IMG/VR virus record: IMGVR_UViG_3300046451_000053
Location: 1 to 37,710 of that record
Length of the DNA stretch: 37,710 nucleotides
Reading direction: 5' to 3' (one strand)
DNA from: a virus
In this document: positions 4,285 through 21,505 of the stretch, one piece after another
Layout of the letters: each line of letters begins with the position of its first letter
How positions within the stretch are numbered: position 1 is the first letter of the stretch
Translations under genes and position numbers: made by a program
Notes under the pieces: generated by a model
What the model was told of the DNA's origin: nothing
The model's input: only the letters and a program-made list of their open reading frames with translations
Database searches by the model: none

Positions 4285-5064
4285 CTATCCTAATGCTATG
4301 GCTAAAGCTGTTGCGGTTGATGCCGCATCTACAGCAGTAACAAATGAAGATGTATCTACACTTGCGGTTAAAAGTTGAAACTGAGTACCATCGTAGATAA
4401 CACCAGTAAGCCCAGCGGCTAATATTTGATTTGCTGATAAAGCTGATCCACTATTCTGTACAGCTTTAACTCCTAATCCACTAACGTTTAAAGTAGTAGC
4501 CCCTGTGTTATTATTGTCTGCGTCAAAGTAAAACACCTGTCCAGCAACATAACTGGTTATAGCTGGACTAGGAGCTATTACGTAAGCGTTTGTACCCCCT
4601 GTGTCTTGAGCAAAGTTCATAGAAGCGTTCTGAGCTTGTCCAAGTGTTACACTGTCTGTTAAAGCAGTACCTACAGCAAGTCCTGTTATCTTAGCGTTAC
4701 TTGTGGCTAAAGCAGATAGACCTGCTATAGAACCTCCTGATATACTTACACTGCTAGATGCCTGTGTAGCTATTGTTCCTAGACCTAAAGCTGACCTAGC
4801 GGCACTGGCAGATGTAGCTCCTGTACCCCCTTTAGCAACTGGAACAGTACCTAGACTAAGTGTAACTGAACCTATGGCATTGTCTCTGGCAACAGGACTA
4901 GTAGCTGTAATACTAGATACACCTGACAAAGCTGATGCAAGTGTGTCCTTACGTATCTTGTGCGTAGTACCTGCACTTATATCAACAATCGCTAAGACAT
5001 CATCAGCCGCTAAGTTAACTTCTGATAGTTCTGGTAACTCCGTTATCTTTTTGTTTGTTGCCAT
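4285..5064 (-). CDS. Putative tail fibre protein with conserved stalk repeats (259 aa)
   Basis: The N-terminus KKITELPELSEVNLAADDVL is a common start of phage fibre proteins and probably docks to the virion. Residues around 75-105 carry the widespread VAKGGTGATSASAARSALGL fibre motif. Next come small Gly/Ser/Ala repeats and a C-terminal region (FYFDADNNNTGATTLNVSGL) shared by many collar/fibre proteins. It is fully leftward and directly behind the 98-residue protein that follows the portal. Being the most portal-proximal of the fibre genes, it could be the proximal fibre. The function is family-based; the order of assembly is inference. Confidence 0.8.
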   Translation of the reverse strand: MATNKKITELPELSEVNLAADDVLAIVDISAGTTHKIRKDTLASALSGVSSITATSPVARDNAIGSVTLSLGTVPVAKGGTGATSASAARSALGLGTIATQASSSVSISGGSIAGLSALATSNAKITGLAVGTALTDSVTLGQAQNASMNFAQDTGGTNAYVIAPSPAITSYVAGQVFYFDADNNNTGATTLNVSGLGVKAVQNSGSALSANQILAAGLTGVIYDGTQFQLLTASVDTSSFVTAVDAASTATALAIALG

Positions 5065-5371: not shown

Positions 5372-7390
5372 TTACGCCTTTACGTTTTGTCCAGAAGACA
5401 TTTCAAACCCAAGTTCTACTCCTTTAAGTTTCAACTCTTCTTTCTTTATGTTGATGTTGTTTTCTAACTCTAGTCTTTCTAGTTCTAACTTCCCTGCTTT
5501 TATCTCTAATTCACTTGCTTTAACTTGAGCTTCCATTCTAGAAGTTTCAGCTTCCATTGTAAGTGCTTGCGCCTGTGCTTGTGCTAGTATGTCTTGTGGT
5601 GACGGTGGTGGAGGTTCTACTGGTTCAGGTTGTGAGATAAACTGATCTGCATTTTTGATACCCATCTCTGCACCAAGTTCTTTCACCAAGTTATATATGT
5701 TCTGTGGTGAAACCATGTTATCAGTTTGGGTAGCTACTTTTTCAATTAAAGCAGAGAAACTAGAAAGATTATTAAGGCGAACATCTTGATCTCCATATCC
5801 TAGGCCAACTTCAACACTCACATCCAAGTCTTCTTTCCAACTGGAAGGATCAACTTCGTAGTAAGCATTGTTTAGGCGCATTACTTTTTTACTATCTTCG
5901 TATCGCTGAACTAGGTTGTATATGTTTTTAAACATACTCTTTACACCTGTGTCAGCAAATACTCTAGCTATTAACTCTACTCTTCCTTGTGCGTTACTCA
6001 GAGCACCTTGCACTGCTCCTTGTGTTACATGGGACTTTAGAACATCTGCTGGTAAACCCTGAGTAGCTCCGTTTACTCCGGTTCTACCTGCTTTAAGTTT
6101 ATCCCAATAGTCCAGCATTTCAAAACTATACTGCTGTAGGGCAGGTGTTTGAATAGGCTGTAAGGCATTAGGTGATCTTGTGCGTACAATTCCACCGGGG
6201 CGGTTGGTTAACAGATCGTCTATGTTAACTTGACCTTCTACAACTTGGAACCTACCGTTGTTTGCCAAGTACATATTGTCTAATAGATTTCTTGTTAGGG
6301 TACTGCGAACAAGTTGTATATCTTCTACCGTCTCTGCTACAGATAGCCCATAGAACTTATGAGGGATCGGTATTGGGCATATAGAGCTAAAGGGTATAGT
6401 ATCTACAGGCTCCATCTCTAGCATTTCGTTGCCAGAGTGTATTACTTTGTAGAGTACCCCTACACCTGTGTCCTCTAAGTCTAGTTTAGTGTAGGATTCA
6501 AATACTTCTACAGTGTCCTCTGAGCGTACCACAGATCGTGTATCTATTTGATTTGTGCTATCGTATGCGTGTCTGGCCATATATTCTTGGCTAGTTGTAA
6601 GTCCGTCTACACTTGATCCAGAGCTTGCTAAACCTTCTACTAACTCTTCGTCAAAGCCCATTTCAATAAGCTCAGTTCTAGTTTTATGAGATCGGTGACA
6701 AACAAATCTAAAATCTTCTAAGCTCTTAGCACCACGGTTTATGAGAAACTCTTCCGGTGGTATATTATCTATTGTGACCTTACCGGACATTTTAGTTCTG
6801 CTAAATGTCACATCGTGTTTAATGTCTTCTACTTGGACTAGCTCACCTGTCTGTGGGTCAGGTACTTCTATGACGGTAACATCTTCTGTGTGCTCTAGGA
6901 TCTCTAACTCTTTGTCCTCTGAGATAAGGCTAAATTCTTGTTCTGTTAACTTCTCATAGGACTCCGTGGTGGTCTTTGTTATGTCTTCCCAGTAGTGTTT
7001 TACTATGCCAACCTTCTGTAGGAGAGCGTCAAAGAAGAAGTTGTACAGTATGTCAAATCCATTGTTCTGCTTGTAGAACACATGGTTCACGTAGTTCGTA
7101 GCCTGTTCTGCTATCTGGACATCTTCTGGTCCTTCTGGAGTGAAGCGTACTACGTCTTTACCACTTGTAAAGATACGCATTAAGCTAGGCATCATCCACA
7201 TGATAGTGTCTTGTACATCTGTGACAACTACTTGAGAGCGTCCATCCTCTTCGTTACCAAATGGTTCCCCATAGAAATACTCCATAGAGCGTTCTCGTTG
7301 TGTACTAATCTCAGAATCAATAAAAGAAGAACTGTCTTCTACTTCACCACTAAGAATAGATACTATTTCATCGTCGGATAATTTATCCAT
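5372..7390 (-). CDS. Portal protein (P22-like)
   Basis: A 672-residue protein, the expected length of podovirus portals. It forms the dodecameric ring at one vertex through which DNA is packaged and ejected. Seen: an acidic N-terminus, SQVVVTDVQDTIMWMMPSLM near residue 50 (typical of P22-type portals), IPFSSICPIPIPHKFYGLSV near 335, and the wing/stem region VRSTLTRNLLDNMYLANNG. The C-terminal 100 residues form a long coiled coil rich in Glu, Lys and Leu after a PEPVEPPPPSP linker, possibly the barrel. It lies just downstream of the large terminase, as in many phages. Confidence 0.92.
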   Translation of the reverse strand: MDKLSDDEIVSILSGEVEDSSSFIDSEISTQRERSMEYFYGEPFGNEEDGRSQVVVTDVQDTIMWMMPSLMRIFTSGKDVVRFTPEGPEDVQIAEQATNYVNHVFYKQNNGFDILYNFFFDALLQKVGIVKHYWEDITKTTTESYEKLTEQEFSLISEDKELEILEHTEDVTVIEVPDPQTGELVQVEDIKHDVTFSRTKMSGKVTIDNIPPEEFLINRGAKSLEDFRFVCHRSHKTRTELIEMGFDEELVEGLASSGSSVDGLTTSQEYMARHAYDSTNQIDTRSVVRSEDTVEVFESYTKLDLEDTGVGVLYKVIHSGNEMLEMEPVDTIPFSSICPIPIPHKFYGLSVAETVEDIQLVRSTLTRNLLDNMYLANNGRFQVVEGQVNIDDLLTNRPGGIVRTRSPNALQPIQTPALQQYSFEMLDYWDKLKAGRTGVNGATQGLPADVLKSHVTQGAVQGALSNAQGRVELIARVFADTGVKSMFKNIYNLVQRYEDSKKVMRLNNAYYEVDPSSWKEDLDVSVEVGLGYGDQDVRLNNLSSFSALIEKVATQTDNMVSPQNIYNLVKELGAEMGIKNADQFISQPEPVEPPPPSPQDILAQAQAQALTMEAETSRMEAQVKASELEIKAGKLELERLELENNINIKKEELKLKGVELGFEMSSGQNVKA

Positions 7391-9363: not shown

Positions 9364-9469
9364 CTCCCAATTTTACCCCCAAAAAATGAAGGCAGAGAAC
9401 TATTATAATAATACACACTCAGGGGGGGTTTCTGTTCTCTCTTTGTTCCTCAATTGCTGCCAGGTGTGA

Positions 9470-9630
9470 CAATATTGTAACAGTGTTGCACAAATGCGTG
9501 ATATATGTGCAATAGTGTTACAATATTGGTACAATGTTGTGTGACAATTGTGCAACACATTGTTGCTATGTGATTGATTTGCAACAGTGTTATTATATTG
9601 GTACAGTGTGTTACAATATTGGTACAGTGT
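9470..9630. repeat. Iteron-like array of a 23-base repeat
   Basis: Three direct copies of GTGTTACAATATTGGTACA followed by (A/G)TGT start at 9515, 9587 and 9608; the middle copy has TTATAT in place of CAATAT. A fourth, inverted partial copy (CAATATTGTAACA) lies at 9470-9482. The last two copies are 21 bases apart, two helical turns. Such spacing suits cooperative protein binding, as at replication origins or multi-site operators. Function is inferred. Confidence 0.7.
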
Positions 9631-9741
9631 GCGAGTGTGCTTGGTGTACATCTATTGACTGTTAAACTATTGGATTGCTTAAATAATAGGCAATAAACTA
9701 TAGGCTATTTTAAGACGTTTTAAAGCTATGTAATTTAAATA

Positions 9742-10292: not shown

Positions 10293-10958
10293 CTAATGCT
10301 TTTTATAGGATACGTTTTTAATGCCTTTATTCCAGCAAGCCCGACAATCACCGCAATTGTTTTTACGGGTATAAGCTTTGCACTCTTGGCCAATTGGCTC
10401 GTGGTCTTTTGTATGGACTGTACTTGTGCACAAATTTGGCAACAATGCACCATATGATCTAGTCGTAGCCTTACCGTTTATTTTGGAACCTGATATACGA
10501 ACGCATAAGTTTTCAGGTATTGCGTAGGCATTTACATAGTTACGTTCTTGGGTAGGTAACCAATGTGCAATATTTGGTGTTCTTTCACAAACCAGACAAA
10601 TTGCCTTGAACATTTGTTCACTTTGTAAATCTCCAGCGTCGAACCATCGATGATACCTAACCTTAGTCTTTTCAGCTTGTCGCTCAATTTGAAACACCAT
10701 TGCAGATACCCAAGTGAATAATTTGTCTTCTACTACTGCCTTATTATATTTTGCAAGGTTTAACTTGTACCCCATGTCTACACTTGGTCTAAGCTTTTGA
10801 AGCTTCCTAGCGTAGCAACTATTACAGCTTGTACCTTTTATTTTAGCAAGCTTGGAACCCGTTTGACACGCGAATGCATCAATTGAGAATGTCGTACCTG
10901 GCATTTTTGTGTTACCGTTTGAGATTTTACCTAACTCTTGTGCTTCTTTTACTAACAT
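10293..10958 (-). CDS. GP88-like cysteine-rich protein (221 aa)
   Basis: Resembles the phage 'gene product 88' family of unknown function. Seen in order: GNTKMPGTTFSIDAF near residue 15, a CNSCYA cysteine cluster near 45, RYHRWFDAGDLQSEQMF near 100 (the family's R-x-x-x-(S/A)GDL motif), TPNIAHWLPTQER near 127, and a C-terminal zinc-knuckle-like ECKAYTR-x6-CGDCRACW, ending NVSYKKH. The many spaced cysteines suggest bound metal, zinc or Fe-S. It has its own promoter, an AGGGGA Shine-Dalgarno and its own terminator. The family link is from recognised motifs, not from a search; the biochemical role is unknown. Confidence 0.78.
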   Translation of the reverse strand: MLVKEAQELGKISNGNTKMPGTTFSIDAFACQTGSKLAKIKGTSCNSCYARKLQKLRPSVDMGYKLNLAKYNKAVVEDKLFTWVSAMVFQIERQAEKTKVRYHRWFDAGDLQSEQMFKAICLVCERTPNIAHWLPTQERNYVNAYAIPENLCVRISGSKINGKATTRSYGALLPNLCTSTVHTKDHEPIGQECKAYTRKNNCGDCRACWNKGIKNVSYKKH

Positions 10959-11057: not shown

Positions 11058-11264
11058 TTAACCTGCGAAATTGTACAAATTGCGACCATTTGCTTTTTCT
11101 ATATATAGCGAACGTTTACCAAAATGTAAACCTGTCATGGTTGAGCCACTGGTAATATCATATCTAGTTTTACCCCCACGCCTACGATATAAACCTTTGA
11201 CCACACCGAAAAGACAAAAACGCTTTCCGCTCGTGCCATCATTAAGACTTTTTGTTTTTAACAT
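11058..11264 (-). CDS. Small basic protein (68 aa), first leftward early gene
   Basis: A 68-residue, Lys/Arg/Gly-rich protein. The start at 11264 is chosen because AAGGAG lies 6 bases upstream; an upstream in-frame ATG (11306) would place 14 residues over the promoter region. It contains GKRFCLFGVVKGLYRRRGGK and a repeated GKR motif, which suggests nucleic-acid binding, but no known fold is evident. It is driven by the leftward half of a divergent promoter pair and closed by its own terminator. As the first gene beside the ACACTT operator cluster, it is a candidate regulator or host-takeover protein (inference). Confidence 0.68.
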   Translation of the reverse strand: MLKTKSLNDGTSGKRFCLFGVVKGLYRRRGGKTRYDITSGSTMTGLHFGKRSLYIEKANGRNLYNFAG

Positions 11265-11294
11265 ACTATAACTCCTTTGATTTAAGATTTGTAC

Positions 11295-11323
11295 ACTTAA
11301 CCACACTTAGTTTCAATAGTCAA
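11295..11323 (-). promoter_or_regulatory. Leftward promoter of the 68-aa gene
   Basis: TTGACT (11323-11318), 17-base spacer, TTAAGT (11300-11295), 31 bases before the ATG at 11264. It overlaps two ACACTT repeats. Its -35 box is 14 bases from that of the rightward promoter. Confidence 0.55.
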
Positions 11324-11337
11324 GTGTAAAATAAAAC

Positions 11338-11366
11338 TTGACTACACTTAGCACACTTGCTACACT
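11338..11366 (+). promoter_or_regulatory. Rightward early promoter
   Basis: TTGACT (11338-11343), 17-base spacer, TACACT (11361-11366), 28 bases before the first rightward ATG (11395). The spacer and -10 box themselves consist of ACACTT repeats, so occupancy of the repeats would shut the promoter. Confidence 0.65.
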
Positions 11367-11394
11367 TCGTAGACATTAACAGAAAAGGGATATT

Positions 11395-11624: not shown

Positions 11625-11816
11625 ATGGAACAATTAGAACCAAACACATTAATCTTACTAGAGATTTTGTCAGACAATGAAGAGCTGAGTGATTGCTTAG
11701 AAGGCTTGGTGGATCTTGCACTTGTAAACGATAGACACCAATTGCACTTTATAAAAGAGGCGATTGTGGACTATTCCTTAAAGTTTTACCCTAATTTACC
11801 AGAATATATAAATTAG
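11625..11816 (+). CDS. Small acidic helical protein (63 aa)
   Basis: A 63-residue acidic protein (net negative), Leu-rich and probably all-helical: ILLEILSDNEELSDCLEGLV then DLALVNDRHQLHFIKEAIVD. It starts four bases after the previous stop and is the last gene before the second rightward promoter. No family recognised. Acidic early phage proteins can mimic DNA or bind host enzymes, but that is speculation here. Confidence 0.6.
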   Translation: MEQLEPNTLILLEILSDNEELSDCLEGLVDLALVNDRHQLHFIKEAIVDYSLKFYPNLPEYIN

Positions 11817-11819
11817 TAC

Positions 11820-11847
11820 TTGACAGTCCTACAAAATAGTGTACCCT
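11820..11847 (+). promoter_or_regulatory. Second rightward promoter (tentative -10)
   Basis: Perfect TTGACA at 11820-11825. The best -10 candidate is TACCCT (11842-11847, 16-base spacer), followed at once by TATACA and the palindrome at 11849. The -35 is convincing and the -10 is weak, so activation or tight repression is plausible. Confidence 0.45.
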
Positions 11848-11848
11848 A

Positions 11849-11924
11849 TACACTTAGTACTATATGTACTAAGTGTACACTTCAATAGAGTATTCTACAC
11901 TTAGTACTAAGTGTACTAAGTGTA
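11849..11924. promoter_or_regulatory. Operator-like palindromes built on TACACTTAGTAC
   Basis: Dyad 1 (11849-11877) has perfect 12-base arms, TACACTTAGTAC and GTACTAAGTGTA, around TATAT. Dyad 2 (11896-11915) is a perfect 20-base palindrome, TACACTTAGTACTAAGTGTA, and a further half-site GTACTAAGTGTA overlaps it at 11913-11924. This makes five identical 12-base half-sites in 76 bases, just downstream of a TTGACA box. The core matches the ACACTT cluster at 11293-11369. A sequence-specific dimeric or tetrameric regulator is the simplest explanation. Confidence 0.75.
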
Positions 11925-11948
11925 TCAATGTTGTACAATGGAGGTAAT

Positions 11949-12134
11949 ATGTTTGTCATTTTCTTTTTAGCCGTTCTCGTAGGATCAACACAATCCGACT
12001 ACTTAAACACCATCAAGCAAGAGCAAGACCAAGGTGCCACCTGGCACTACACTGGAGGTCAACCAGCGGACCCCAGTGCTCAACAGTTGTTTAATGCTGA
12101 GACTATATACTGGAAGTTACAATATGAAAAGTAA
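11949..12134 (+). CDS. Small secreted or membrane-anchored protein (61 aa)
   Basis: The start at 11949 (MFVIFFLAVLVGSTQS) is chosen for the GGAGG five bases upstream; an in-frame ATG at 11928 would overlap the operator region. It has a short N-terminal hydrophobic segment, either a signal peptide or an anchor, then a polar domain with WHYTGGQPADPSAQQLF. First gene after the palindromic operators. Function unknown. Confidence 0.6.
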   Translation: MFVIFFLAVLVGSTQSDYLNTIKQEQDQGATWHYTGGQPADPSAQQLFNAETIYWKLQYEK

Positions 12135-17673: not shown

Positions 17674-18153
17674 ATGAAGTATCAGAAAGGTAAGCCAATT
17701 AAGGCTAGTGAATGGAGAACTTACTGTAGCAGTAGTAAGTATCTCAAACCGGAAATAGACGAACTAGGAAAGGAAAATTTTTCATTTACAATAATTTTAC
17801 TCTGTGATAACAAACGCAACTTGTACTACAATGAAATGAAAATACAAGTAGAATTAGGTGTGTTAGAAACAGATAAGTATTACAATGCAAACGTAGGTGG
17901 AAAGAGATTCTTTAGACCTGTTAAGAGTTATACTGATCCTAACTTTATAAGAAAAATAAGTGGTGCAAATCATTACAGATGTAAAGGTGATTTTATTGTC
18001 ACTTATAAAGGCGGTATTACTAACTTAATTAAGAACAAAAGTCTTAGGCAATTTGCTAAAGAGAACGGATACAATCAATCTCATCTTAGCAAGGTAGTTA
18101 ATAAGAACAAAACCCATAAAGATATTATTAAACTGGAGTTTTTAGATGGCTAA
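17674..18153 (+). CDS. GIY-YIG-type endonuclease ORF, conventional start missing
   Basis: From the first ATG the ORF gives 159 residues, but the same frame is open upstream to 17515. There it encodes the GIY-YIG hallmark: HFGFVYRITNLKNDRSYIGC at 17611-17670, which contains FVY and YIG. The ATG version would lose the catalytic Tyr/Arg region and be inactive. No ATG, GTG or TTG exists in the upstream part; CTG at 17578 is the only near-cognate of note. The frame is -1 relative to SSB and overlaps its last 12 codons. The C-terminus has a helix-turn-helix-like LRQFAKENGYNQSHLSKVVN, as in homing endonuclease DNA-binding modules. Non-AUG start, frameshift from SSB, or a broken gene are all possible. 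T7 resolvase (gp3) is absent, so it might fill that role. Confidence 0.72.
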   Translation: MKYQKGKPIKASEWRTYCSSSKYLKPEIDELGKENFSFTIILLCDNKRNLYYNEMKIQVELGVLETDKYYNANVGGKRFFRPVKSYTDPNFIRKISGANHYRCKGDFIVTYKGGITNLIKNKSLRQFAKENGYNQSHLSKVVNKNKTHKDIIKLEFLDG

Positions 18154-21187: not shown

Positions 21188-21505
21188 CTATACTTGAAAG
21201 CTTTCGCCACATCCACACATAGATTTGACATTAGGATTGTCTATCATTAGCCGCTGTCCGAATATATCCTTTTTGTAATCTATTGTCATACCTTCTAGGT
21301 ACAGTAGAGAGACAGTGTCTATGAGAAGTTTACCGGAATCAAGATCAATTATATGATCTCCTGCCTCCTCTGAGCTAGTCAACTGCCAATCATAAGAGAA
21401 CCCAGAGCAACCTCCACTGCTAACTGCTAAGCGTATGTCAGTGGTAGTGTTTTCGTTTATGATTGAGGATAAGTGTATGTCTGCGTTATCAGTTAGGTTA
21501 ATCAT
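21188..21505 (-). CDS. HesB/IscA-type Fe-S cluster carrier
   Basis: A 105-residue A-type carrier. All three cluster ligands are present with family spacing: Cys in SGGCSGFSY, then 63 residues, then CGCGESF at the C-terminus. The family takes nascent Fe-S clusters and passes them to apo-enzymes in the cytoplasm. Located at the end of the leftward late unit, after virion genes. It could service the phage's own four-cysteine exonuclease or maintain host metabolism; both are inference. Length and completeness argue that it is functional. HesB-like genes are known auxiliary genes of marine phages. Confidence 0.9.
   Translation of the reverse strand: MINLTDNADIHLSSIINENTTTDIRLAVSSGGCSGFSYDWQLTSSEEAGDHIIDLDSGKLLIDTVSLLYLEGMTIDYKKDIFGQRLMIDNPNVKSMCGCGESFQV

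Follow-up and report, generated by a model that had tools for sequence, protein, structure and literature searches.

Introduction

The usual view, to our knowledge, is that lytic phages regulate their early genes without specific repressors. The put-type RNA of HK022 forms hairpins at the start of the early transcript, which bind polymerase and bring about antitermination.

At the DNA level, the operators of Aca autorepressors in anti-CRISPR operons lie at a strong phage promoter ahead of small early genes and comprise a single inverted repeat or two similar ones; each Aca family has its own palindrome (PMC9410906). In Cluster A mycobacteriophages, repressor sites are located at the early promoter, downstream sites (stoperators) can stop elongation, and immunity groups arise as the operator diversifies along with its repressor (PMC6550527, PMC9283540). 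The omega heptads of pSM19035 are unspaced short tandem units, both direct and inverted, which lie over promoters and are bound by a cooperative small protein (PMC9499535). In the phages LUZ24, PaP3 and tf, a TTGACA-17-TATAAT promoter precedes an early gene, and the early and late halves have a homologous architecture; according to the tf paper, the tf promoters coincide with the experimentally identified LUZ24 promoters (PMC3517423). In these respects the systems are akin to the locus described here. The accessible parts of the LUZ24-group promoter literature (PMC3517423 for the promoters) do not mention the palindromes that are reported below for these phages.

Results

Repeat array and promoters

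The window, i.e. the whole stretch of DNA analysed, comprises the 37,710 nucleotides of the IMG/VR record IMGVR_UViG_3300046451_000053. The features of the early region are collected in Table 1. Exact half-sites TACACTTAGTAC were located at 11849 (+), 11866 (-), 11896 (+), 11904 (-) and 11913 (-), so that the five 12-base copies within 76 bp reported in the first-pass annotation were recovered at their exact coordinates; no further exact copy is present in the record. That annotation had described one 12+5+12 dyad, a perfect 20-bp palindrome and an overlapping half-site. The palindrome and the overlapping half-site were found as described, but the dyad is not single: two such dyads, O1 and O2, form 29-bp direct repeats with 93% identity and an offset of 47 bp.

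Table 1. Positions of the promoters, repeat units and adjoining genes in the early region of the window.
Feature	Position	Strand	Description
Degenerate cluster	11293..11367	.	lies over the divergent early promoter region and consists of six ACACTT/AAGTGT units
P1, promoter-like	11338..11366	+	TTGACT-17-TACACT, TG ahead of the -10 box; overlapped by the degenerate cluster
63-aa protein	11625..11816	+	predicted acidic, helical; immediately ahead of P2; synteny kept in L031 and L036
P2, -35 box	11820..11825	+	TTGACA; matching box at the matching place in L036 and L031
P2, putative -10 box	11842..11847	+	TACCCT, spacer 16, inferred; TATTTT with spacer 17 in L031 and L036
O1, putative operator	11849..11877	.	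12+5+12 dyad TACACTTAGTAC-TATAT-GTACTAAGTGTA; 2 nt past the -10 box, spans the expected transcription start
CAATAGAG element	11883..11890	+	between O1 and O2; kept in many relatives
O2, putative operator	11896..11924	.	dyad TACACTTAGTAC-TAAGT-GTACTAAGTGTA; holds three exact half-sites that overlap (20-bp palindrome and one more)
61-aa small protein	11949..12134	+	first gene behind P2, preceded by GGAGG (11940-11944); L031 has a homologue behind its array

In dinucleotide-Markov simulations of the genome (n = 30), no 12-mer occurred more than twice per 100 bp, compared with the five copies observed, and the repeat score behind P2 was 34 versus a maximum of 8 across 20 shuffled genomes. As neither the copy number nor the score was ever reached, the array is not due to chance. 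Scans with Rfam and for tRNAs gave no matches. Among 84,980 genomes, the 20-bp palindrome matched only one isolated site in Flavivirga, which was judged a chance match. The exact-pattern scan of IMG/VR returned the same phage from other samples (L006 and L007, more than 99.9% identical); L009 is also the same phage by this measure.

The TTGACA box noted ahead of the site in the first-pass annotation is real, and its placement of a dense, regulatory-type site at a promoter ahead of small early genes was supported. The array lies inside the early operon, between the 63-aa and the 61-aa genes. The -10 box of P2 is poor; the relatives carry TATTTT or TATAAT at the equivalent position.

The degenerate cluster, which is absent from the first-pass annotation, is located about 0.5 kb upstream of the array and includes the head-to-tail 9-bp units TACACTTAG-CACACTTGC-TACACTTCG. 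Of the 47 ACACTT/AAGTGT hexamers of the genome, 12 are found in two clusters, half of them in the array and the other half at 11293-11367. In simulated genomes, the maximum was three units per 80 bp versus the six of the degenerate cluster.

Genome context

The window phage is tailed, and its major capsid protein is of the SU10 type. The closest cultured-phage matches of its terminase are marine Vibrio and Pelagibacter phages (about 56%), a virion protein matches the PaP3/LUZ24/Bjorn group, and the replication genes are T7-like; no phage RNA polymerase was found among the window genes, and nothing in the genome suggests lysogeny. The layout is like that of Bjorn and LUZ24: one strand carries the early genes and those for replication (11.4-21 kb), the opposite strand carries the late genes, and a large divergent region separates the two halves. 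At the convergent end of these halves, an Fe-S_biosyn gene (iron-sulphur cluster biosynthesis, A-type carrier) is present at 21188-21505 (-).

Near the array, a cysteine-rich GP88-family protein of 221 aa is encoded at 10293-10958 (-). GP88 neighbourhoods in several phage lineages carry promoter arrays, the search itself having been seeded with GP88. A 68-aa basic protein, predicted to be all-beta and with the pattern LNDGT.G.RF.WGL.RKR..., is encoded at 11058-11264 (-); it belongs to no known family and occurs at 14 of the 34 array loci. Beside the small-terminase gene, at 9464-9640, lies another repeat array of a different kind, with GTGTTACAATATTGGTACA palindromes and a 31-bp imperfect inverted repeat (9465-9533). 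A CACTGTTGC/ACACTGTTG cluster is common to relatives and is located 600-1000 bp upstream of their large terminase. The 9464-9640 array is possibly a packaging or replication site.

Arrays in related phages

The compared loci comprised 80 with 78-100% terminase identity, 80 around the GP88 gene and 34 around a third early gene. In the close relatives L031/L032 and L036/L105 (87-88% terminase identity), the 63-aa gene is retained together with a TTGACA-17-TATTTT promoter and an array built from the same motif. The L031 array reads TACACTTAG-TACACTTAT-TACACATAG plus GTACTAAGTGTA, and that of L036 reads TACACTTAG-TACACATAG plus three 26-bp repeats of TACTAAGTGCACTTAGTA.

In more distant relatives, including the cultured LUZ24/PaP3/tf and CRP-4, the palindromes differ from that of the window (CTCTATAGAG, CACTATAGTG, CAATTGTG, ACTTAAGT, ACCTTAAGGT). 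At the equivalent promoter place, CTCTATAGAG was found in L098, L130 and L209, CACTATAGTG in L160, L172 and L162, CAATTGTGATCACAATTG in L065 and L068, TACAATATTGTA in L149 and L145, and ACTTAAGT in L118, L109 and L108. The same place is occupied by AACAATATTGTT with ACACAATTGAGA units in L071, L079, L069 and L120, by eight copies of TCTCTATAGTGT in L122, and by arrays of other palindromes in L095, L092/L160 and L144, among others. The upstream gene, the promoter and the array are kept in synteny in L031 and L036, and a differing palindromic array takes the equivalent place in farther relatives. Conserved flanking genes with a lost palindrome, which the first-pass annotation had named as an outcome that would speak against its reading, were not seen in the relatives examined.

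Of the 16 distinct phages tabulated, most have the first unit of the array 1-6 nt past the -10 box; in three of them it overlaps the -10 region. Head-to-tail units with a 12-bp period were found in L122 (eight copies), L160 and L071. Among close relatives, the unit number changes in whole 9- or 12-bp steps: four in L160 versus three in L172, four in L071 and L069 versus three in L079 and L120, and three in L031 versus two in L036. The CAATAGAG element recurs between the outer units in relatives. This element serves as a tandem array unit in L209 and L071, hence it is probably one further binding unit.

A sequence-blind repeat score of at least 12 was obtained at 72 of 1482 promoter-like sites in the terminase and GP88 loci versus 3 of 294 in control loci, the score having been devised after the pattern was noticed and some of the high-scoring sites being simple repeats. 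One of the three high-scoring control sites is the cultured phage CRP-4. At the end of contig L050, upstream of the terminase, a 36-bp perfect palindrome AATGTTAACATAATGGATATCCATTATGTTAACATT directly follows a TTGACA promoter; it may partly be an assembly artefact.

Arrays in cultured phages

In the cultured Roseobacter phage CRP-4 (L010, MK613346, 1648-1767), a promoter with a TACTTAAAGGATA array stands ahead of a Zn-ribbon-like gene; the array is at record position 1648 and is nearly identical to that of L166. In PaP3, LUZ24 and tf, AACCTTAAGGT comes immediately after TTGAC(A/T)-17-TATAAT, and a second copy is located about 15-40 bp further, as either ACCTTAAGGT or ACCTAAGGT. The PaP3 leader was matched by 92 phage records.

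The Bruynogheviruses HSN4 and SL4 have another promoter behind a holin-like gene, and it also carries the AACCTTAAGGT start-site palindrome, here with no downstream partner; the second promoter of PaP3 has the variant palindrome ACCTTGTGGT. In the Bruynogheviruses L226, L227 and L223, two promoters both contain GTGTG(G/A)TATAATAACCTTAAGGTG...CCGGGG(G)TTGC. One of the shared promoters is located upstream of LUZ24 gp13/PaP3 orf54 and the other behind the holin-like gene, where the PaP3 variant is found. No such array was present in the stretches read of the cultured Cobavirinae SIO1, ICBM1 and P12053L, or found in phage Bjorn.

Search for the regulator

No DNA-binding regulator was recognised among the window proteins scanned, either by Pfam, by PHROGs or by a genome search for HTH_39. 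In line with the first-pass view that the phage has no known repressor, none of these proteins gave a significant transcription-factor match. Clustering of the conserved early families, 14 of which were tested, yielded no family clearly co-varying with the operator sequence. The best correlate of operator similarity was HTH_39, with rho 0.58 over 18 non-independent pairs and 14 families tested; but neither the window nor L031 or L036 has it.

The 68-aa basic protein resembles the DNA-binding domain of T4 MotA only insignificantly (E about 1). It was rejected, as its similarity does not track the operator and it is closest to that of L149, whose operator differs. For the 63-aa protein no significant fold or PDB match was obtained, and this neighbour of the array is predicted to be all-helical, without the N-terminal strand of ribbon-helix-helix proteins.

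Discussion

The sequence at 11849-11924 is best read, with a probability of roughly one in two, as a DNA operator array for a regulator that binds cooperatively and is probably a repressor. The tandem 9-bp TACACTTAG-type units would form two operators, arranged as two dyads at the P2 transcription start. A small, sequence-specific, cooperative protein, made early and most likely encoded by the phage, would occupy the units from the start site downstream. The bound protein would block initiation or act as a roadblock to early elongation at P2, and the small-gene operon would be shut down or tuned after the protein has accumulated. The same protein probably acts on P1 too, more weakly, via the degenerate cluster. 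In related phages, the promoter-plus-array design is kept, and the recognition sequence would have diversified, like that of repressor/operator pairs. An early-to-middle switch by a dedicated regulator, as suggested in the first-pass annotation, is a conjecture within this reading, and so is binding by the small proteins named there. Several observations speak against the reading. No DNA-binding regulator was recognised among the window proteins scanned, and no protein family clearly co-varied with the operator. The centre of the unit changes by 1-2 bp (a 9- versus a 12-bp period; ACCTTAAGGT versus ACCTAAGGT), which is unusual for a rigid dimer, and the leaders also fold well as RNA.

The RNA hairpin that the first-pass annotation gave as an alternative is possible but doubtful. 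The P2 transcript would start with one long hairpin or two 12-bp hairpins, the pairing and not the sequence being conserved, and the leader would serve 5'-end protection, RNase III cutting or a polymerase modification like that by the HK022 put RNA. This would account for the fast sequence turnover without a co-varying regulator. The window leader has a folding z of -5.5 and two 12-bp stems that pair perfectly. The outer arms of many relatives begin at the transcription start and pair across 30-50 nt, and the arms are sometimes non-palindromic yet pairing (18 bp in L118, 15 bp in L144, 15 bp in L031 and 10 bp in L041); in the leader of LUZ24 P1, AACCTTAAGGTGTCCGGGG pairs with CCCTAGGATACCTAAGGTT by inspection. 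However, the leaders of L085 and L080 have no folding excess (z = -0.1), and direct similarity exceeds inverted similarity in the window, L036, L122 (44 versus 9), L149, L109 and others. A hairpin needs neither palindromic arms nor head-to-tail units. Most leaders can form a fold. The DNA operator array is still preferred because the units are near-palindromic and, in many phages, stand head to tail, because their number shifts in whole units without a matching change of the partner arm (L160 versus L172), and because the start-site palindrome is kept at the second Bruynoghevirus promoter, which has no partner. The DNA and RNA levels could also act together.

It is rather unlikely that the sites are operators for a transcription factor of the host, by which the early genes would be timed to the state of the host and the sequences would differ since the hosts differ. 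Such a reading agrees with the failure to find a phage regulator and with the origin of the phages with differing arrays from many samples. Moreover, the unrelated contig L011 has ACACTTAGT-N11-ACTAAGTGT over TTGACA-17-TATAAT beside NrtR-like Nudix and NAD-salvage genes, from which it follows that half-sites of such sort serve cellular-type regulators. Nevertheless, the spacing in L011 is 11 versus 9 or 0 in the window, no NAD genes are among the recognised window proteins, and the 20-bp palindrome occurs at just the one isolated site in the genomes searched. The dense multi-unit arrays and the stepwise unit changes better fit a phage-specific, evolving pair of protein and operator.

A structural or replication site (iterons, packaging, centromere-like) merely adjoining the promoter is very improbable: the tandem repeats are iteron-like, but the array lies within a few nt downstream of the -10 box in most of the phages listed, the site is present at two separate promoters in Bruynogheviruses, the GC skew turns across the whole early/late divergence and not at 11849-11924, and the other array of the genome, on the small-terminase side and with a CACTGTTGC-type motif common to relatives, is a better candidate for such a role.

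Extending the DNA operator reading to a large group of lytic phages is more tentative. We regard it as conceivable, on balance improbable, that the uncultured marine LUZ24/SU10-type relatives, the Bruynogheviruses and the Veravirus CRP-4 control their early genes through a previously undescribed, promoter-proximal array of cooperative operators. The recognition sequence would diversify phage by phage in the manner of immunity groups, and it would be read by a new type of DNA-binding protein, which would also confer superinfection immunity between these otherwise lytic phages. If this is true, many marine phages as well as the well-studied Pseudomonas phages LUZ24 and PaP3 would carry an unrecognised regulator, possibly with homotypic superinfection immunity. 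Because cultures exist of LUZ24, PaP3 and CRP-4, the question is directly testable at the bench.

Comparison with known systems

In a limited literature search, no prior description of this architecture was found. The consensus of the NrdR box is the 16-bp palindrome ACACWATATATWGTGT. NrdR boxes were rejected since the spacing in the window is N8 (ACACT-N8-AGTGT) and N17 instead of N6. The L011 operators, found with the N11 variant, are located at 5029-5057 and 6870-6898. The contig encodes an NrtR-like Nudix regulator, a nicotinate phosphoribosyltransferase and a NadD-like protein, as named by reading the translations, and its operator was judged to be different from that of the window and of NrtR type. 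NrtR operators combine the N11 spacing with linked NAD genes, whereas the window has no NAD-metabolism Pfam match; the PHROG label 'NAD synthetase' at 17674-18153 was rejected, this being a GIY-YIG endonuclease by Pfam.

Aca sites lie within the core promoter (IR1 and an optional similar IR2), whereas the two similar dyads of the window begin past the -10 box, and up to eight tandem units are found in the present arrays. The Aca operon contains the HTH aca gene; in contrast, the early ORFs of the window contain no HTH, and HTH_39 is absent. Stoperators are single asymmetric sites distributed genome-wide and belong to a system with an immunity repressor gene, whereas the window has palindromic sites within 76 bp, a degenerate cluster only at P1 and no recognised repressor among the proteins scanned. 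As both systems have defining features that were looked for here and are lacking, the array was not filed under either of them. The omega system combines 7-bp units with a ribbon-helix-helix protein; here the units are 9-12 bp and no ribbon-helix-helix protein was identified, and the array was not filed under this system either. The promoters of LUZ24, PaP3 and tf share with P2 the start-site palindrome and the second copy downstream, but they have two units only, with another palindrome, and are annotated just as sigma70 promoters.
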